A model generated the notes under the pieces. It was not told where the DNA came from, searched no databases, and saw only the letters and a list, made by a program, of their open reading frames with translations. Below, one piece after another: positions 44,883-53,896 of a stretch of DNA of 64,000 nucleotides. Source of the DNA: Streptomyces sp. SCUT-3. Its GTDB lineage: Bacteria > Actinomycetota > Actinomycetes > Streptomycetales > Streptomycetaceae. The number at the start of each line of letters is the position of its first letter. Within the stretch, counting starts at the first letter, position 1. The stretch lies in the NCBI RefSeq assembly GCF_014083985.1, contig NZ_CP046907.1, forward strand, positions 1,434,501-1,498,500, written 5' to 3'. Position numbers and translations under genes: made by a program.

Positions 44883-44940
44883 CTCAGTCGACCAGACTAC
44901 CCCTGCCGCCGGGGGGCCGGGGATGGCAGGATCGGGGACC

Positions 44941-45957
44941 GTGCGCCCCTTCCTCCCCGCCTCCGTCGCCCGCCGGACCGCCCGCCCCGTCGCGGCGCTG
45001 GTGGCCGCGGTGACCGCGGTCGCGGCCGCGGCGGCACTGCTGGCGTGGTGGTCGGCGCCGTCGGCCGGGACGCCGGTGCCCGAGGGCCCGGTGACCGTCG
45101 CCACCGGGGTGCGCAGCGGCGTGTACGAGCGGTACGGGCGCATGCTGAAGGAGGACCTGCGCACCGACCTGCCCGGGGTGGACGTCCGGCTGGCACCGAG
45201 CGCCGGCTCGGTCGAGAACATCAACATGGTCGCCTCGGGCCGGGCGTCGTTCACCCTGGCCGCGGCCGACGCGGTCGCCGACTACCGGGGCGCGGGCCGG
45301 GACCGCCTGCGGGCCTGCGCCCGCCTGTACGACGACTACCTGCAGCTGGTGGTGGCGCGTTCGTCGACGGTCCGCAACGCCCGGGAGCTGCGGGGCCTGC
45401 GCGTCGGCGTCGGCCAGGACGGCTCCGGGGTGAACCTGATCGCCGAGCGGCTGCTCACCGCGGCCGGCCTGCACCCGACGCGGGACGTCGAGGCGGTCCG
45501 GGTCGGGATAGACCGGGCGCCGCGGATGCTGGAGAAGGGCGAGCTGGACGCCTTCTTCTGGTCCGGCGGCCTGCCGACGACCGCCGTGTCGAACCTGTCG
45601 CAGCGCTTCCCGATCCGCCTGGTGCAGCTGGGCGACCTGGCGGAGCCGCTCCGCGAGCAGGCGGACGGGGGGCGCAACCACTACCGGCAGGCCGTGATGC
45701 CGGGCGACGCCTACCCAAAGGCGTGGCCAAGGGGCGCCGCGGTCCCGACCGTCGCGGTGGCGAACCTGCTGGTGACCACGGACCGGGTGGACGCGGCGCT
45801 GACCGAGCAGGTCACCCGGACGGTCATCGACAGCCGGGACCGGATCGGGGAGCAGGTCCACGCGGCGCAACTGGTCGACCTGCGCACCGCGATCTACACC
45901 GACCCGCTGCCGCTGCACGAGGGCGCGCGCCGCTACTACCGGTCCGTCAAACCCTGA
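44941..45957 (+). CDS. TAXI-family solute-binding lipo/periplasmic-type protein
   Basis: A protein of about 338 residues of the TAXI group, the binding proteins of tripartite TRAP transporters. A membrane segment or signal anchor near the N-terminus ([21 protein letters not shown]) is followed by the binding domain: [21 protein letters not shown] (the TGVxxGxY motif), [41 protein letters not shown] and [19 protein letters not shown]. No TRAP membrane subunits are adjacent, so it may act as a sensor or with distant permeases; glutamate is among the substrates of TAXI proteins. The GTG at 44941 is chosen for its CAGGA site; an ATG at 44923 is possible. There is no lipobox Cys. Confidence 0.85.
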
Positions 45958-46131
45958 GCCGGGCGGGGAGGGCGACGGATTCCGGGACGTCCCGGGCGAG
46001 AACGCCCCCCCGCCCGGTTCCCCCGCCCCCCGCACGGGGGATGCGGTTGATCACGAACGGGCCGTGCTCGTGTGCTTACCCGTACGGGCGCCCTAACCTG
46101 TTTGCTCACACCGTCTGTTGGGGGCCGAAGG

Positions 46132-48027
46132 ATGCGAACCGGGGGAACGCCGGGCGGCGTCGTCGACGGCCGCTACACACTGCTGCGGCCGCTCGGCCGC
46201 GGCGGCATGGGTGTGGTGTGGGAAGCCCTCGACACGCGGCTCAACCGCCAGGTCGCCGTCAAGGAGCTGCTGTTCCGGGGCGCGGTCGACCCGGACACCC
46301 AGGCCCAGTGGGTGCGCCGTGCGCGGCGCGAGGCCGAGGCGATCGCACGGATCGACCACGAGCACGTGGTCGCCGTCCACGACGTCATCGAGGCCGAGGG
46401 CCAGGTGTGGATCGTGATGGAGCAGGTCGACCCGCACTCGCTGGCCGACCTGCTGCGCGAGCACGACCGGCTGCCGCCGCTGAACGTGGCCCGGATCGGC
46501 CTGGAGGTGCTGCGCGGGCTGCGGGCCGTGCACGCCGCCGCCGTGCTGCACCGCGACGTCAAACCGCACAACATCCTCTTCCGCCGGGACGGCAGGGCGG
46601 TGCTGATGGACTTCGGCATCGCGACCTTCGAGGGTGCCGCCCAGGTGACGCGGCGCCACGAGACGGTGGGCACCCCGCAGTACCTCGCCCCCGAGCTGGC
46701 CTCCCCGTGGACCGACGGGCCGCGGGAGGCGGCCCCGGCGGCCGACCTGTGGTCCCTGGGGGTGACGCTGTTCGAGGCGGTGGAGGGCCGGGCCCCGTTC
46801 CGCGGCCCCACCCCCGTCGAGGTGCTGCACGCGGTGCGCCACGCGGACCTGCCCCCGATGCGGCACGCCGGGCCCCTGCGCCCCCTGATCGAGGGCCTGC
46901 TGGTCAAGGACCCCGAGTCCCGCACGGGCGCCGCGCGGGCGGAGCAGCTGCTGCAGCACGTGGCCCAGGAGACCCCGCTCCAGCCGCTGCCGCTGCCCCG
47001 GCCCGCCCGGGCGGGGGACGGCCGCAACGACACGGACGGCGGCCGGGAGGCCGGCACCACCACCGAGGTCCACCTGGAACGGACCCCGGTCCCGTCGCCC
47101 CTCCCCGCCGCGCCGGACGCCCCGCGGCCGCCGGCCGCCTCCCGCCGGCGCCGCGCCCTGCTGCGCGCCGCGGCCGGCGCGGCGGGACTGGCCCTGCTGG
47201 CCGCCGCGGGCTGGTACGGGGTGGAGCGGCTGCGCGAGGAGGCCGCCCCCCGGCTGTCCTCCTCGCCCACCTGGCAGGCGGCCCGGGACAGGGGGTACCT
47301 GCTGGTGGGGGTCAAGGAGGACCAGCCGGGCCTGAGCCGCCTGGTGGACCCCGCCACCGGCGAGTACGAGGGCTTCGACGTGGACCTGGCCCGGGCCGTC
47401 GCCGAGCGCCTGGGCTTCGAGGAGGTGCGGTTCGAGACGGTGAACACCAAGAGCCGCGAGTACCGGCTCACCAGCGGCCAGGTGGACCTGATAGTCGCCT
47501 CGTACAGCATCACCGAGGAGCGCAAGAAGGAGGTGGACTTCGCCGGGCCGTACTACCTGGCCGGCCAGGACTTCCTGGTGCGCGAGGACACCGACGGCAT
47601 CGACGGCGTGGAGGACCTGGCGGGGCGCCAGGTGTGCACCGTGGAGAGGTCGACGCCCGCGGAGCGCCTGGAGGACGAGTACCCCCGCATAAAGCGCCAG
47701 TTGCGCGTCTCCTACGGGGTGTGCGTGGACGAACTGCTGGCCGGCACGGTGGACGCGGTGACCACCGACGACGTCATCCTGGCCGGCTACCGGGCGGCCC
47801 ACCCGGACCGGCTGCGGCTGCTGGGCGCCCCCTTCGCCATCGAGTACTACGGCGTCGGCCTGCACAAGGGCGAGCCCGCCCTGAAGGCCGCGGTGTGCGA
47901 GGCGATAAGGGAGCAGATCGACTCGGGCGCGTGGAAGAGGAGCTACGACCGGCACCTCAAGCCGCTGGCCCCCGCCGAGCTCTCCGACAGCCGCCCGCCG
48001 GAGCTGGGGGAGTGCCCGCGCCCCTGA
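46132..48027 (+). CDS. Receptor Ser/Thr kinase with extracellular glutamate-binding-like domain
   Basis: A 631-residue single-pass receptor kinase. Residues ~14-280 are a Hanks-type kinase: glycine loop LGRGGMGVVWEA, catalytic Lys44 (VAVKEL), HRDVKPHN (Asp142), DFG at 160-162, TVGTPQYLAPE. A Pro-rich linker follows, then one membrane helix (~344-362). Residues ~383-620 are an SBP_bac_3 binding domain: LLVGVKEDQPG, GFDVDLARAVAERLG, ERKKEVDFAGPYYLAGQ, GTVDAVTTDDVILAGY. The same blocks occur in GluB encoded 3 kb away, so the ligand is probably glutamate or a close relative. The two Cys of GluB-type domains are kept. The ATG at 46132 has a purine-rich GGGGGCCGAAGG upstream. The kinase target is unknown. 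Confidence 0.93.
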   Translation: MRTGGTPGGVVDGRYTLLRPLGRGGMGVVWEALDTRLNRQVAVKELLFRGAVDPDTQAQWVRRARREAEAIARIDHEHVVAVHDVIEAEGQVWIVMEQVDPHSLADLLREHDRLPPLNVARIGLEVLRGLRAVHAAAVLHRDVKPHNILFRRDGRAVLMDFGIATFEGAAQVTRRHETVGTPQYLAPELASPWTDGPREAAPAADLWSLGVTLFEAVEGRAPFRGPTPVEVLHAVRHADLPPMRHAGPLRPLIEGLLVKDPESRTGAARAEQLLQHVAQETPLQPLPLPRPARAGDGRNDTDGGREAGTTTEVHLERTPVPSPLPAAPDAPRPPAASRRRRALLRAAAGAAGLALLAAAGWYGVERLREEAAPRLSSSPTWQAARDRGYLLVGVKEDQPGLSRLVDPATGEYEGFDVDLARAVAERLGFEEVRFETVNTKSREYRLTSGQVDLIVASYSITEERKKEVDFAGPYYLAGQDFLVREDTDGIDGVEDLAGRQVCTVERSTPAERLEDEYPRIKRQLRVSYGVCVDELLAGTVDAVTTDDVILAGYRAAHPDRLRLLGAPFAIEYYGVGLHKGEPALKAAVCEAIREQIDSGAWKRSYDRHLKPLAPAELSDSRPPELGECPRP

Positions 48028-48109: not shown

Positions 48110-49528
48110 TCAGACGACGGGCGCCGAGCGGGGCACCGAGAGGGTGACCTCCAGGCCGTGGGGGTCTCGGGGCGCGTAGGTGATGCCGCCGCCGCCCGCG
48201 GTGAGCAGGGCGCGGGCGATGGACAGCCCGAGTCCGGAGCCGTCGACGTTCTGGTGCCGCCCGCTGCGCCAGAACCGGTCCCCGATGCGGGAGAGCTCCT
48301 CCTCGGCCAGTCCCGGGCCCCCGTCGGCCACGGTGATCTCCACGGTGCCGGTGAGCACCCGCACCCGCACCTCCACCCCCTCGCCGGCGGGGGTGAACTT
48401 GATCGCGTTGTCCACCACGGCGTCCAGCGCGCTGGACAGGGCGATCGGGTCGGCCCACCCGGTCGCGGCGCCGGGGCCGTCGTAGGCCAGGGCGACCTCC
48501 TGCCGCCCGGCGGCGGCCTGCCAGGCGGCCACCCGCTCCGCCGCCAGCTCGGCGATGTCGGTGATCTTCAGGTCGGGTTCGGCGTGCTCGGCCAGGGCCA
48601 GGCCGAGCAGGTCGTCCAGGACCCTGGCCAGCCGCCGGCCCTCCTCCTTCACCGAGGCCAGCTCCGCCCGGTGCTCCCCGGGCAGCGAGTAGCCCAGGAC
48701 CTCGATCCGCAGCATCAGTGCCGCGAGCGGATTGCGCAGCTGGTGCGAGGCGTCGGCGACGAACGCGCGCTGCTGCTCCAGGACGTCCTGGAGGTGGTCG
48801 GCCATCTCGTTGAACGAGCCCGCCAGCCGCCGCAGCTCGGGAGGGCCGCCGGCCGGGGCCACCCGGGACTTCAGGCGGCCGGTCGCGATGTCGTGGGTGA
48901 CGGCGTCCAGGAGTCTCACCGGGCGCAGCACCCAGCCGGTGAGGCGGACGGCGGCCAGGACGGCCACCAGCATGGCCGCCGCCTCGCCCGCGCCGAGCAC
49001 CAGCCAGTCGTGCAGGATGCGCGAGCGCAGGCCGTCGGTGGGCGAGTCGGTGAGCACCACGGCGACCACGTCGCCGTCGCGCACGATCGGGGAGGCGACG
49101 ACCAGCCGCCGGTCCCGCCAGGGCCACGCCTGCGGCGGGTCGTGGCTGCGCCGCCCGTCCAGGGCCTCCTCGAAGGCGCGGTCGGTCTCCTCGTCCCCGG
49201 GCAGCCGCCAGCCGGCGGGGGCGACGGCCATCGGGGCGCGGTCGCGGTGGAAGACGCCGGCCCGGATGCGGTAGAGCTCCTCGTAGCGGCGCAGCTCGGA
49301 GGCGAGGGTGGCCCTCTTCCCCTCCTCGTCCAGGCCGGGCGGGGCCGCCTCGGCGGTGCGGGCGGTGACGAACTGCGCGACGGCGGCGAACCGCGCGGCG
49401 TCGTCCATGCGGTCGACGACGACCTTCTGCTGCTGCGCGGCGGCCAGGCTGGCCGCCAGGGGGAAGCCCAGGGCGAGCAGGACGCCGGCCATCAGGGAGA
49501 GCAGGATCGCCAGGAGTCGGGTGCGCAC
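48110..49528 (-). CDS. gluK: Sensor histidine kinase GluK-like
   Basis: A 472-residue membrane histidine kinase. TM1 (LLAILLSLMAGVLLALGFPLA) and TM2 (GEAAAMLVAVLAAVRLTGWVL) frame an extracellular region of about 150 residues. A HAMP segment (LRPVRLLDAVTHDIATGRL) follows. The phosphoacceptor His is in DASHQLRNPLAALMLR. ATP-binding boxes are DNAIKFTPAGEG (N), VADGGPGL (G1) and GSGLGLSIARALL (G2). It begins 12 bases after the response regulator stop, so the pair is one operon. By position next to gluABCD it corresponds to GluK of S. coelicolor, which is reported to govern glutamate uptake. Confidence 0.9.
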   Translation of the reverse strand: MRTRLLAILLSLMAGVLLALGFPLAASLAAAQQQKVVVDRMDDAARFAAVAQFVTARTAEAAPPGLDEEGKRATLASELRRYEELYRIRAGVFHRDRAPMAVAPAGWRLPGDEETDRAFEEALDGRRSHDPPQAWPWRDRRLVVASPIVRDGDVVAVVLTDSPTDGLRSRILHDWLVLGAGEAAAMLVAVLAAVRLTGWVLRPVRLLDAVTHDIATGRLKSRVAPAGGPPELRRLAGSFNEMADHLQDVLEQQRAFVADASHQLRNPLAALMLRIEVLGYSLPGEHRAELASVKEEGRRLARVLDDLLGLALAEHAEPDLKITDIAELAAERVAAWQAAAGRQEVALAYDGPGAATGWADPIALSSALDAVVDNAIKFTPAGEGVEVRVRVLTGTVEITVADGGPGLAEEELSRIGDRFWRSGRHQNVDGSGLGLSIARALLTAGGGGITYAPRDPHGLEVTLSVPRSAPVV

Positions 49529-49540
49529 CGCGGCCCGGTC

Positions 49541-50275
49541 CTAGTCCGTGGGCGGGACGAGCCGGTAGCCGACCCCGCGCACGGTCTCGATCAGGGCGGG
49601 CAGCTTGAGCTTGGAGCGCAGCGAGGCCACGTGCACCTCGAGGGTGCGGCCGGTCCCCTCCCAGCTGGTCTGCCAAACCTCGCTGATGATCTGCTCGCGC
49701 CGGAAGACGACGCCGGGGCGCTTGGCGAGCAGCGCCAGCAGGTCGAACTCCTTGCGGGTGAGGGCGACCCCCACGCCGTTGACCTCGACCCTGCGGCCGG
49801 CCTGCTCCAGGGTGACCGGGCCCAGGACGACCGGGGCCAGGACGGCCGTGCCGGAGGGGGCACCCGCGTGGCCGGGAGGGTTGGGCAGGGGGGTCTCCTG
49901 GGTGTCCTCGGAGCTGCGGCGGCTCACCGCGTGGATGCGGGCGAGCAGTTCCCCGGTGTCGTAGGGCTTGACGACGTAGTCGTCCGCGCCCAGGTTGAGG
50001 CCGTGGATGCGGGAGCGGACGTCCGCGCGGGCGGTGACCATGATCACCGGTACGCGGCTCACGCGGCGGATGCGGCTGCACACCGCGAAGCCGTCCTGGT
50101 CCGGCAGCCCCAGGTCCAGCAGCACCACCCGGTGGGGGTCGCCGCCGTCCGGCAGGAGCGCCTGCAGCGCCTCCTCGCCGTTCCGCGCGTGGGTGACGGC
50201 GATGCCGTGCCGGCCGAGCACCGCCCTGAGCGCGGCCGCGACGTGCTCGTCGTCCTCCACCAGCAGCAGTCGCAA
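49541..50275 (-). CDS. gluR: Response regulator GluR-like (OmpR family)
   Basis: A 244-residue response regulator. The receiver domain has the acidic pair in LLLVEDDEH, phosphoacceptor Asp in VVLLDLGLPDQDG, Thr in VTARAD and Lys in DYVVKPYDTGELLARI. After an unusually long ~35-residue Pro/Gly linker comes an OmpR winged helix (GVALTRKEFDLLALLAKRPG; GRTLEVHVASLRSKL; IETVRGVGYRL). The TTG at 50275 is selected because GAAGGAGGA lies 8-9 bases upstream and it gives the standard LRLLLVEDD start. It is divergent from gluA; the shared 270-base gap is the likely target. Confidence 0.92.
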   Translation of the reverse strand: MRLLLVEDDEHVAAALRAVLGRHGIAVTHARNGEEALQALLPDGGDPHRVVLLDLGLPDQDGFAVCSRIRRVSRVPVIMVTARADVRSRIHGLNLGADDYVVKPYDTGELLARIHAVSRRSSEDTQETPLPNPPGHAGAPSGTAVLAPVVLGPVTLEQAGRRVEVNGVGVALTRKEFDLLALLAKRPGVVFRREQIISEVWQTSWEGTGRTLEVHVASLRSKLKLPALIETVRGVGYRLVPPTD

Positions 50276-50430
50276 CGCGCTGCTCCTCCTTCGCCTTCCC
50301 GTCGGTCCCGAATCGTTCCTCCGGTGAAGTGACACCGATTCGTACGGGCGGCGTCAAGCGGATCACGCCCGTGCGGAGGAGAAGTTACGCAGACGGTATC
50401 GGCCACCCTGTCCGGTATCCACTCTGCGTG

Positions 50431-50545: not shown

Positions 50546-51322
50546 ATGACCGAGGTCTTTGTGACCAAGGACGCCGCACCCGCGGACGATCCCCTGGTCG
50601 TGCTGGAGAACGTGAACAAGCACTTCGGCGCTCTGCACGTGCTCCAGGACATCGACCTGACCATCGCCCGCGGCGAGGTCGTGGTCGTCATCGGACCCTC
50701 CGGGTCCGGAAAGTCCACGCTGTGCCGCACCATCAACCGTCTGGAGACGGTCGACTCGGGCACCATCCGCATCGACGGCAGGCCGCTGCCCGCCGAGGGC
50801 CGCGAGCTCGCCCGGCTGCGCGCCGACGTCGGCATGGTCTTCCAGTCGTTCAACCTGTTCGCGCACAAGACCGTTCTGGAGAACGTCGTGCTCGGCCAGG
50901 TCAAGGTGCGCAGGGCCGACAAGAAGGCCGCCGAGCAGAAGGCGCGTGCGCTGCTGGAGCGCGTGGGCGTGGGCAACCAGGCGGACAAGTACCCCGCCCA
51001 GCTGTCCGGCGGACAGCAGCAGCGCGTGGCGATCGCCCGCGCGCTGGCCATGGACCCGAAGGTCATGCTCTTCGACGAGCCGACCTCCGCCCTGGACCCG
51101 GAGATGATCAACGAGGTCCTGGAGGTCATGCAGCAGCTGGCCCGGGACGGCATGACGATGGTCTGCGTCACCCACGAGATGGGCTTCGCCCGCTCCGCCG
51201 CCAACCGCGTGCTCTTCATGGCCGACGGCCGGATCGTCGAGCAGGCGAGCCCCGAGGAGTTCTTCACCAACCCCAAGAGCGACCGGGCCAAGGACTTCCT
51301 GTCGAAGATCCTCCACCACTGA
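50546..51322 (+). CDS. gluA: Glutamate ABC transporter ATP-binding protein GluA
   Basis: A 258-residue cytoplasmic ATPase of a polar-amino-acid importer. Walker A is [19 protein letters not shown], the Q-loop is [12 protein letters not shown], the signature is [19 protein letters not shown], Walker B is [15 protein letters not shown] and the switch His is in [10 protein letters not shown]. It is the first gene of the gluABCD operon, 21 bases or fewer before gluB. Confidence 0.96.
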
Positions 51323-51333
51323 GAAGGCAAGGG

Positions 51334-52266
51334 ATGTCTCCCATGAAGTTCCGCAAGACCGCCGCAGCGACCTTCGCCGTCCTGGCGCTCACCGCGACCG
51401 CCGCCTGTGGCGGCAAGGAGGGCACCCCCTCCTCCAACGCCAAGCCGAGCAACTCCTCCGGCGAGACCCCGGAGCTGCCCACCTACAAGGTGGCCTCCGG
51501 CGTCGACCTCGAGGGCTCCGACACCTTCGACCGGATCAAGAAGAACGGCAAGGTCACCATCGGCGTCAAGAACGACCAGCCGTACCTGGGCTTCGAGGAC
51601 CCCAACACCGGGGAGCGCTCGGGCTTCGACATCGAGATCGCCAAGATGATCGCGGCCGACCTCGGCCTGTCCGCCGACAAGATCACGTACAAGACGATCG
51701 ACTCGAAGAACCGCGAGACCGCGATCTCCCAGGGCCAGGTCGACTACTACGTCGGCACCTACACGATCAACGACGAGCGCAAGAAGAAGATCTCCTTCGC
51801 CGGCCCGTACTACATCGCCGGGCAGAGCCTGCTGGTCCGCAAGGACGACGACTCCATCAAGTCCGAGGAAGACCTCAAGGGCAAGAAGGTCTGCTCCATC
51901 AGCGGCTCCACCCCCCTGATGAACATCCAGAAGGGCAACTACGGCGCCGAGATCGTCGCGCTGGACAAGTACACGGACTGCGTCAAGCAGCTCACCGACG
52001 GCCAGGTGGACGCGGTGACCACCGACGACGCCATCCTCAAGGGCTACGCCGCCCAGCAGCCCAAGGTCCTCAAGGTGGTCGGCGAGCCGTTCTCCGACGA
52101 GCCCTACGGCGTCGGCCTCCCCAAGAACGACAAGGTCTTCCAGGAGGCCCTGCTCGACGCGCTGCAGAACCACATGGACAACGGCGACTGGAAGAAGGCG
52201 TACGACGCCACGCTCGGCCTCTCCGGCTCCCCGGCCGACGAGCCGCCGGCGCTCGAGCGCAACTGA
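51334..52266 (+). CDS. gluB: Glutamate-binding lipoprotein GluB
   Basis: A 310-residue substrate-binding protein. The signal peptide (FRKTAAATFAVLALTATAA) ends with a lipobox Cys (TAAC), so it is tethered outside the membrane. After a Ser/Asn-rich tether, the SBP_bac_3 domain shows VTIGVKNDQPYLGFED, GFDIEIAKMIAADLG, DERKKKISFAGPYYIAGQ and GQVDAVTTDDAILKGY. Two Cys (KVCSIS and YTDCVKQL) probably form a disulfide. An ATG at 51343 also has a suitable ribosome site. It delivers ligand to GluC/GluD and shares its ligand domain with the receptor kinase at 46132. Confidence 0.95.
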   Translation: MSPMKFRKTAAATFAVLALTATAACGGKEGTPSSNAKPSNSSGETPELPTYKVASGVDLEGSDTFDRIKKNGKVTIGVKNDQPYLGFEDPNTGERSGFDIEIAKMIAADLGLSADKITYKTIDSKNRETAISQGQVDYYVGTYTINDERKKKISFAGPYYIAGQSLLVRKDDDSIKSEEDLKGKKVCSISGSTPLMNIQKGNYGAEIVALDKYTDCVKQLTDGQVDAVTTDDAILKGYAAQQPKVLKVVGEPFSDEPYGVGLPKNDKVFQEALLDALQNHMDNGDWKKAYDATLGLSGSPADEPPALERN

Positions 52267-52346: not shown

Positions 52347-52994
52347 ATGAACGTACTGCTCGACCACTTCTCGCTGTTCCGCGACGGATTCCTGGGAACC
52401 CTGTCGCTGACCGCGGTCAGTGCGGTGATAGCCCTCGTGCTGGGCGCCCTCGTCGCGGCCTGCCGCGTGTCGCCGGTACCGCCGCTGCGGGCCTTCGGCA
52501 CCATGTGGGTCACCCTGCTGCGCAACACCCCGCTGACCCTGCTGTTCCTGGTCGCGATCTTCGTCGTGCCGCAGGTCTTCTTCCCCGGCCTGAGCTACTA
52601 CACCCTGTCCGTGTGGGCCCTGGGCTGCTACACCTCCGCCTTCGTCTGCGAGGCGCTGCGCTCGGGCATCAACACGGTCCCGGTCGGGCAGGCCGAGGCC
52701 GCCCGCAGCCTGGGGATGACCTTCGGCCAGACCCTGCGGCTGATCGTCCTGCCCCAGGCGGGACGCACCGTCGTGCCCCCGATGAGCAGCATCCTCATCG
52801 CCCTCACCAAGAACACCTCCCTCGCCGGCGCCTTCAACGTCTTCGAACTCTTCGGGGCCCAGAAGACGCTGAGCGAACTGGGGTACAGCATCGTGGTGAT
52901 CTTCGGCTGGATCGCCCTCGCCTACCTGATCATCACCCTGACCCTCAGCGGCCTGTTCCGGCTGCTGGAGAACCGGCTGGCGGTGGCCCGATGA
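52347..52994 (+). CDS. gluC: Glutamate ABC transporter permease GluC
   Basis: A 215-residue inner-membrane permease with about five helices (LSLTAVSAVIALVLGALVAA; TLLFLVAIFVVPQVFF; YSIVVIFGWIALAYLIITLTL). The coupling EAA motif that docks the ATPase is EAARSLGMTFGQTLRLIVLPQA. LRNTPLTLLF is the usual N-terminal loop of amino-acid permeases. Its TGA overlaps the ATG of gluD. Confidence 0.95.
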   Translation: MNVLLDHFSLFRDGFLGTLSLTAVSAVIALVLGALVAACRVSPVPPLRAFGTMWVTLLRNTPLTLLFLVAIFVVPQVFFPGLSYYTLSVWALGCYTSAFVCEALRSGINTVPVGQAEAARSLGMTFGQTLRLIVLPQAGRTVVPPMSSILIALTKNTSLAGAFNVFELFGAQKTLSELGYSIVVIFGWIALAYLIITLTLSGLFRLLENRLAVAR

Positions 52995-53896
52995 GTGCCA
53001 GTGTCCTCTACGACGTCCCCGGCCCCCGGGCCCGCAGGCGCAACCTCCTCTACTCGGTGGTCGGCGGGGCCGCCCTCCTCGGGCTGCTGGTCTTCGTCGT
53101 CATGCGCCTGTACTCGCAGGGGCAGTTCGAGTCCTACATGTGGGACCTGTTCGAGTACAACGGCATCCGGCAGCGCCTCCTGGACGGCCTGGTCTCGACG
53201 CTGCTGGCCTTCTCGATGGCCGCCGTGCTCTCCCTGGTGCTCGGCGCGCTGCTGGCGGCGGGCCGGCTCTCCGACCACCGCCCGGTGCGCTGGGTCTGCA
53301 CCGCGGTCGTGGAGTTCTTCCGGGCGATGCCGCTGCTGATCATGATCTTCGCCCTCTACCTCAGCGTCTTCACCGGGACGCCGCTGTGGGCCCTGGTCAT
53401 CGGCCTCACCCTCTACAACGGCTCCGTCCAGGCCGAGGTGATCCGCGCCGGCATCAACTCCGTGCCCAAGGGGCAGGCCGAGGCCGCCTACGCCCTCGGC
53501 ATGCGCAAGACCCAGGTGATGCTGACCGTCCTGGTCCCCCAGGCCGTGCGGGCGATGCTCCCGACGATCATCAGCCAGCTGGTGGTGACCCTCAAGGACA
53601 CCTCGCTCGGCTACGTCATCACCTACGAGGAGCTGCTCTACGCGGGCGGCGTGATCATGCGGAACACCGTCACCGAGGGCGGCAACCCGTACGTGCCCGT
53701 CGTGATCGTGGTCGGCACCGTCTACGTCCTGATGTGCCTGGCGCTGTCCTACCTGGCCACCTGGATCGAGAAGCGCGGGCGGCGCAGCCGCAAGGGCACT
53801 CCGCCCGCCGCCCCGGACGCGTCCGCGCCGACCCCGGGCGCCGTGCCGCCGCAGATGGCCCCGGAGGCGGCCCTCGAAGCCCCCCGGAAGAGCTGA
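52991..53896 (+). CDS. gluD: Glutamate ABC transporter permease GluD
   Basis: A 301-residue permease partnering GluC. An extra N-terminal helix (LLYSVVGGAALLGLLVFVVM) precedes the conserved core (STLLAFSMAAVLSLVLGALLAA; FFRAMPLLIMIFALYL). The EAA loop is EAAYALGMRKTQVMLTVLVPQA. The C-terminal tail after TWIEKRGRRSRK is Pro/Ala-rich and disordered. It starts within ATGA overlapping the gluC stop, indicating translational coupling. Confidence 0.95.
   Translation: MSASVLYDVPGPRARRRNLLYSVVGGAALLGLLVFVVMRLYSQGQFESYMWDLFEYNGIRQRLLDGLVSTLLAFSMAAVLSLVLGALLAAGRLSDHRPVRWVCTAVVEFFRAMPLLIMIFALYLSVFTGTPLWALVIGLTLYNGSVQAEVIRAGINSVPKGQAEAAYALGMRKTQVMLTVLVPQAVRAMLPTIISQLVVTLKDTSLGYVITYEELLYAGGVIMRNTVTEGGNPYVPVVIVVGTVYVLMCLALSYLATWIEKRGRRSRKGTPPAAPDASAPTPGAVPPQMAPEAALEAPRKS

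Follow-up and report, generated by a model that had tools for sequence, protein, structure and literature searches.

A putative receptor kinase with a glutamate-type binding pocket beside the glu genes of Streptomyces sp. SCUT-3

The 64,000-nucleotide stretch of DNA from the soil actinobacterium Streptomyces sp. SCUT-3 analyzed here (RefSeq assembly GCF_014083985.1, contig NZ_CP046907.1, positions 1,434,501 to 1,498,500; hereafter the window) contains, beside genes resembling gluK, gluR, and gluABCD, a gene whose product joins a Hanks-type protein kinase to a solute-binding protein (SBP) domain. We consider it likely from its sequence features that this protein crosses the membrane once and serves as a receptor Ser/Thr kinase whose ligands are acidic amino acids outside the cell, namely L-glutamate and perhaps aspartate. 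The receptor is real and conserved, and it is probably functional. An original prediction made on this DNA had guessed glutamate as the ligand, and the comparisons reported below strengthen that guess.

The receptor gene is an uninterrupted frame (Table 1) whose product carries the Gly-rich loop (GRGGMGVV at residue 22), Lys (VAVK at 41), HRD (HRDVKPHN at 140), DFG (at 160), and APE (at 186) motifs of Hanks-type Ser/Thr kinases (PF00069). Its SBP_bac_3 (PF00497) match has an E value of 4.1e-28 and scores 98.2 bits against a curated cut-off of 26.4. In a hydropathy scan with a 19-residue window, values above 1.4 occurred solely in windows starting at residues 341 to 346, right behind an RRRR, and the maximum was a modest 1.65; the predicted topology rests on this hydropathy. 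The highest hydropathy peak also lies between the kinase and SBP domains in 40 distinct relatives (44 rows minus 4 duplicate contigs), and by eye the stretch linking kinase domain and membrane helix is a low-complexity linker. Frame, Pfam matches, motifs, and hydropathy therefore bear out the originally predicted fusion of a Hanks kinase, one membrane helix, and an SBP_bac_3 domain. A longer frame beginning at a GTG at 46072 is also listed. Relatives at the same gene address show a start codon followed by comparable opening residues (MRNGG, MSSGG, and MTTGG) at the site of the ATG at 46132, but this is a weak argument for that ATG because the relatives' starts were picked by a script as those nearest the site.

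Relatives were collected in two sets that overlap in part, so that counts from the two are not additive. A scan of genome contigs gave 235 relatives, of which the best 80 (79 loci) were retained. Among these, 31 loci (L028 to L058) have a close kinase match, and 30 of the 31 have both kinase and SBP matches; L054, a 3.4-kb contig with the kinase half only and no SBP row, was first labelled group B but falls among group A in the kinase tree. Group A comprises 12 of the 31 loci, with a TAXI gene before and gluK after the receptor, and group B comprises 18, all titled Streptomyces, which are diverged copies sited elsewhere. The titles of the 31 loci name Streptomyces, Actinacidiphila, Wenjunlia, Peterkaempfera, Streptacidiphilus, and Mangrovactinospora, which we take to be Streptomycetaceae. 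A separate search of 150 family genomes with the receptor ectodomain yielded 23 group-A genomes besides that of the window for locus analysis. There are thus at least 24 carriers, a count that sets aside other matches with frames of 440 to 650 residues (for example in G160, G148, G157, and G079); five matches of this size that were fetched (L143, L145, L148, L150, and L151) proved to be SBPs of a second gluABCD-like operon with no kinase match. By pattern search, HRDxKP, DFG, and VAVK are present in 23/23 group-A relatives.

The evidence on the ligand comes from the ectodomain, which is 43% identical to the window's GluB over residues 2 to 236 of 257 (E 4e-60), well above what chance would give. 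The three blocks named in the original prediction as shared with GluB are literally present in both proteins (receptor first: GVKEDQP/GVKNDQP, FAGPYYLAGQ/FAGPYYIAGQ, and VDAVTTDDVIL/VDAVTTDDAIL). The ectodomain's best sequence matches among solved structures are AncQR, 5eyf, and GlnH. GlnH grips the side chain of its ligand through R147, T162, W232, and, via water, K161, with R147 contacting the side-chain carboxylate, whereas S164, R169, and D250 bind the amino-acid backbone (PMC6069109). At these seven positions, in the order 147, 161, 162, 164, 169, 232, and 250, the letters are RKTSRWD in GlnH, RATTRYD in glutamate-bound 5eyf, RASSRYD in the window receptor, RGTTRYD in the window GluB, IAGTRFD in AncQR, and ISSTRQD in three of four proteins of the StpK7 family, the fused mycobacterial kinases discussed below. 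The receptor shares with GlnH, 5eyf, and GluB the signature of acidic-ligand SBPs, that is, Arg at GlnH position 147 together with Ser or Thr at 164, R169, and D250. The column of receptor R442 (GlnH R147) is Arg in 24/24 group-A and 20/20 group-B ectodomains, in 32/32 GluB proteins, in 10/10 second-operon SBPs, and in GlnH and 5eyf; it is Ile in AncQR and in 4/4 StpK7 proteins. R442, R464, Y528, and D546 are kept in all 24 group-A receptors. Across 43 ectodomains (leaving aside L117 and column 161), the six pocket columns average a conservation of 0.90 versus 0.57 over 248 columns, a value matched in 17 of 20,000 random six-column draws. Because of these contact residues, the invariance of R442, and the high conservation of the pocket columns, we conclude that the pocket has been conserved and is, by its residues, of the acidic type.

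The original prediction had staked itself on a pocket like that of GluB, and the comparison did not refute it: the two Arg, the Tyr, and the Asp are equal, and three contacts differ, with Ser for Thr at two and Ala for Gly at the water-mediated one. The two proteins also share the cysteine pair C502–C531. They differ in that GluB is a stand-alone importer binding protein that belongs to a sister clade and has no second cysteine pair. C502 and C531 are common to receptor, GluB, and GlnH. At the column of C589, a Cys is present in all 24 group-A receptors and 18 of the 20 in group B but in 0/32 GluB proteins. Among full-length receptors, a Cys lies within the last 30 residues in 23/23 of group A and 17/18 of group B but in 0/32 GluB stretches, which may end short of the true C terminus. 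Exactly four ectodomain cysteines occur in 23/23 full-length group-A receptors, and group-B receptor L051 has six; full-length counts exclude L124 and L041 (broken frame), L114, and L117, the last being read separately. The second pair is lost together: L053 and L117 lack both C589 and the terminal Cys and have two ectodomain cysteines each. The obvious reading is that C589 and C628 would form a disulfide, specific to the receptors, that anchors the C-terminal tail on the binding domain.

In a tree of 98 SBP domains, the group-A and group-B ectodomains and one stand-alone Actinomadura protein lie on one side (100/98), neighboring GluB and the SBP of the second operon (100/96). Group A is not a clade here, as group B is nested inside it; the tree has several long branches, whose joins may be false according to a warning of the tool. 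Because the receptors are sister to GluB and the second-operon SBPs together, they diverged long ago.

The block around the receptor is conserved. The order TAXI, kinase, SBP, gluK, gluR, gluA, gluB, and gluC recurs in 23/23 other group-A genomes, which span six genera, with gluD recognized in 22 and an extra 3- to 7-kb stretch between receptor and gluK in three. The receptor lies between the TAXI gene and gluK in the window and in all 23, always on the TAXI strand, with gaps of 43 to 372 bases in these relatives. The originally predicted nonrandom placement by gluRK and gluABCD thus holds. Six genomes chosen for having no kinase match at the site (L153 to L158) keep TAXI-gluK-gluR-gluABC(D). 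The receptor is therefore an optional member at a fixed place, since 23 blocks have it and six have the block without it. For group B, matches to TAXI, gluK, and gluR were found in 0/18 loci within fetched flanks of up to 9 kb (about 200 bases downstream for L057). When the SirexAA-E locus (L039) was compared with 16 other group-B loci (all but L057), matches to its six flanking frames came from L038 and L046 alone, apart from one frame that had a further match in L045.

Several observations weigh against a receptor kinase for acidic amino acids. AncQR, the top-scoring solved match, lacks the pocket arginine. Ser457 is present in 23/24 group-A and 7/20 group-B receptors, where GluB has Thr in 32/32, and a Gly (Gly400 in the window receptor) follows the conserved DQP in 44/44 receptors, where GluB has Phe in 15, Asn in 9, Tyr in 4, and Gly in 4 of 32. 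The pattern search missed the APE motif in 2/23 group-A relatives (L129 and L130). The receptor gene is convergent to gluKR and outside their operon, and synteny of the whole block, which persists also where the kinase is absent, could hold the gene in place with no functional tie. In the openly licensed literature, covered in part, we found no binding or kinase data for any member.

Because of Ser457 and Gly400, ligand affinity or specificity may differ from that of GluB. These two residues, together with the old divergence from GluB and the second-operon SBPs, could be cited for a receptor kinase for some other small ligand (e.g. glutamine, cell-wall D-glutamate, or a peptide) that is GluB-like by descent only. 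We regard this as rather unlikely, because the four residues invariant in group A (R442, R464, Y528, and D546) are more in keeping with an acidic ligand than with one that is neutral or basic. A different proposal would make the ectodomain a binding protein tethered to the membrane and docking with either the GluCD permease or GluK; what the kinase then senses would be the activity of transport or of the two-component system instead of free ligand. The common locus in 23/23 genomes and the blocks and 43% identity shared with GluB would suit such docking, but the diverged Streptomyces receptors have no linked gluK, gluR, or TAXI gene in any of the 18 loci with flanks, and we judge it improbable. 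Slightly less credible still is a relic kept by synteny, its ectodomain structural or for dimerization and its ligand gating gone. The block is indeed conserved with or without the receptor; against this, the pocket columns rank among the best conserved, the kinase motifs HRDxKP, DFG, and VAVK are present in all 23 group-A relatives, and one of these 23 (L124) has a broken frame. In that gene, from Streptomyces sp. SPB162, the break lies close to where the kinase domain ends (L124:9445-11374, L041:9001-10930).

The fused architecture, including its presence in Streptomyces, is already in print (2018). The paper concerned is PMC6069109 (Bhattacharyya et al. 2018). Its Discussion describes single-polypeptide SBP kinases conserved in Mycobacterium and Streptomyces, with MSMEG_1200 as the example, and counts "a further 260" in InterPro, Streptomyces included (PMC6069109). 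The window receptor has the architecture so named, kinase and solute-binding domain in one polypeptide, but those passages stop at the architecture and offer no subfamily, no pocket, no locus, and no phylogeny for the Streptomycetaceae branch. Nor did a search of openly licensed literature, largely by title and start of abstract, return a publication on this branch, its pocket, or its locus. What we add, as described from sequence, is a single receptor clade, a fixed gene address, a likely ligand class, and a receptor-specific cysteine pair.

MSMEG_1200 is StpK7 (NF052427), which is reported to affect sensitivity to phage TM4 and neighbors a BREX-like gene island (review PMC13355554). StpK7 resembles the receptor in having a Hanks kinase, a hydrophobic stretch, and a C-terminal SBP domain, and its family is the receptor's second-best NCBIfam match, but at 168.1 bits versus a cut-off of 900. 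In the kinase tree, the receptors form one clade (99/94) neighboring two kinases of the same genome, L006 and L007, and the StpK7 kinases lie elsewhere; in the SBP tree, the StpK7 ectodomains group with other stand-alone SBPs (100/100). Neither domain thus shares StpK7 ancestry. The four StpK7 rows compared, of nine above the cut-off, also lack the pocket Arg and Tyr and the shared disulfide cysteines. An orthologue of StpK7 regulating a phage-sensitivity island, for which the same domain order and the second-best family match could be cited, is therefore rejected as extremely improbable. These trees indicate at least two origins of the kinase–SBP fusion within actinobacteria, each drawing on a different binding protein. 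The simplest history would be one early fusion in Streptomycetaceae at the glu locus, later losses, relocation in Streptomyces, and a separate fusion for StpK7. L006 and L007, the receptor kinase's nearest relatives in the tree among the kinases of the window genome, stand with L025 in a tandem of kinase genes (G000:C1:3458468-3463772) whose outer parts look unlike SBP by eye, no SBP search having been made.

The original prediction had also set the receptor against the three-protein GlnH-GlnX-PknG system of mycobacteria, as a one-protein version of it. This idea was not borne out: the PknG rubredoxin domain is found in 143/150 family genomes and PknG in 22/24 known carriers, and mycobacteria own a fused SBP kinase themselves in StpK7. 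The GlnH-GlnX-PknG-GarA/OdhI cascade resembles the receptor in its SBP_bac_3-type pocket for acidic amino acids and its Ser/Thr phosphorylation output, but it uses three proteins and a soluble kinase with rubredoxin and TPR parts (PMC6069109); the receptor protein has no such rubredoxin domain and no GlnX or separate GlnH parts. The near-complete window genome itself yielded no PknG rubredoxin domain in a profile search, no match to a PknG protein query (3/3 controls positive), and no match to a GlnX query (controls G020, G008, and G165 positive); G090, which lacks PknG, still carries GlnX. There are four SBP_bac_3 matches in all in the window genome, and their identities to Mycobacterium tuberculosis GlnH are 33% for GluB, 35% for the receptor, and 25% for a third, with no match for the fourth. 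Since a GlnH of 38 to 41% identity sits within about 3 kb of PknG in 4/4 relatives examined, a stand-alone GlnH is probably missing here. In a GarA-like FHA gene with an ETTS site (L209:1300-2100, minus strand; G000:C1, about 428.8 to 429.6 kb), the reading frame breaks off within the FHA domain, which may be either a real loss or a sequencing error; unless it is the latter, GarA is an unlikely substrate of the receptor in this genome, as this is the only FHA frame with an ETTS site. PknG is missing in 2/24 carriers versus 5/126 other family genomes (Fisher p 0.31). Because most carriers keep PknG, the receptor kinase was rejected as a general PknG substitute.

The glu gene names used for the window (Table 1) derive from domains and gene order rather than from direct comparison with Streptomyces coelicolor. 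In that species, GluK binds glutamate and gluABCD is under GluR control (review PMC9739842, section 3.17), and a locus of this make-up is for that reason read as a glutamate locus. The receptor's block includes a sensor pair of the GluK/GluR kind (SCO5779/78 in S. coelicolor), but that system is a histidine kinase with a response regulator, and the window's gluK copy shows no SBP_bac_3 domain. About 3.4 kb separate the receptor stop from the analyzed GluB stretch. Because the receptor gene runs toward gluKR and shares a strand with the TAXI gene, it is not co-operonic with the two-component system or the importer; it is a separate unit, possibly transcribed together with the TAXI gene. For the same reason, a single signaling module of receptor, importer, and two-component system would be guilt by association.

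Table 1. Features of the receptor gene and its neighbors (window positions).
Feature	Position	Strand	Basis or remark
Receptor gene, kinase–membrane helix–SBP_bac_3, 631 residues	46132..48027	+	Open frame, Pfam, motif and hydropathy scans
Hanks-type Ser/Thr kinase domain, residues 15-276	46174..46959	+	Pfam Pkinase (PF00069), E 1.5e-47
Single putative membrane helix, about residues 341-364, RRRR on kinase side	47152..47223	+	Hydropathy scan
SBP_bac_3 domain, residues 391-609, GluB-type, predicted extracellular	47302..47958	+	Pfam, structure-sequence matches, tree
Predicted ligand contacts R442, A456, S457, S459, R464, Y528, D546	47455..47769	+	Alignment to GlnH R147, K161, T162, S164, R169, W232, D250
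Four ectodomain cysteines C502, C531, C589, C628	47635..48015	+	Alignment and residue scan
TAXI/NMT1_3 solute-binding protein, N-terminal hydrophobic stretch (by eye)	44923..45957	+	Same strand, 174 bases upstream of receptor gene
gluK-like sensor histidine kinase (HAMP, HisKA, HATPase_c)	48110..49528	-	Convergent to receptor gene
gluR-like OmpR-type response regulator	49541..50335	-	Domain content
gluA-like ABC ATPase	50546..51322	+	Domain content
gluB-like stand-alone SBP_bac_3	51400..52266	+	Analyzed stretch; true start may differ
gluC-like permease	52347..52994	+	Domain content
gluD-like permease, approximate start	53002..53896	+	Domain content

The TAXI-type protein adjoins the receptor gene or gluK in 29/29 blocks (23 with and 6 without receptor) and could be a partner to either GluK or the receptor; the solved structure that it matches best is 1us4, which bears the title "putative GluR0 ligand binding core." The second gluABCD-like operon (L143 to L152) has no gluRK in the fetched stretch, and its SBP is 47 to 50% identical to the receptor ectodomain. 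Two GluB-like genes per glu locus occur in two genomes of genus g2 (L135:13431-17325 and L136:11505-15160). Directly upstream of one group-B receptor (L043:6945-10839), a second kinase match precedes an SBP match, both apparently sharing a frame, perhaps giving two different SBP kinases in tandem. Plasmid records gave 1928 matches, all with less than 80% of the query covered. Of the two ranked highest, which touched both domains, the Tsukamurella record has two adjacent separate genes and the Nocardia record is unannotated.

As we picture the preferred reading, that of a receptor kinase for acidic amino acids, the ectodomain would act as a Venus-flytrap binding domain of the GluB/GlnH type whose lobes close on the ligand, and the signal would pass through the one membrane helix to the cytoplasmic Hanks kinase. 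Ligand binding, whether it activates or inhibits, would alter kinase dimerization or activity and, with it, how far the kinase phosphorylates cytoplasmic targets through which metabolism is adjusted to the supply of glutamate. The receptor is a separate unit at a locus shared with a GluK/GluR-type system and a glutamate-type importer. A further step, which we offer only tentatively and consider doubtful, is that the receptor kinase is gated by glutamate and shares both ligand and locus with the two-component system and the importer; with GlnX-GlnH-PknG lost from this genome, it would be the one Ser/Thr-kinase route left here for sensing external glutamate, and its targets could be GluR, the importer, or central nitrogen enzymes.

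Finding the stimuli of bacterial Ser/Thr kinases has been called an outstanding question (PMC6069109). Such stimuli are mostly unknown, and in this case the pocket residues indicate the likely class of ligand. Because of this, and because the receptor is a single chain and there are genomes with and without it at an alike locus, its ligand, gating, and targets should be directly testable.
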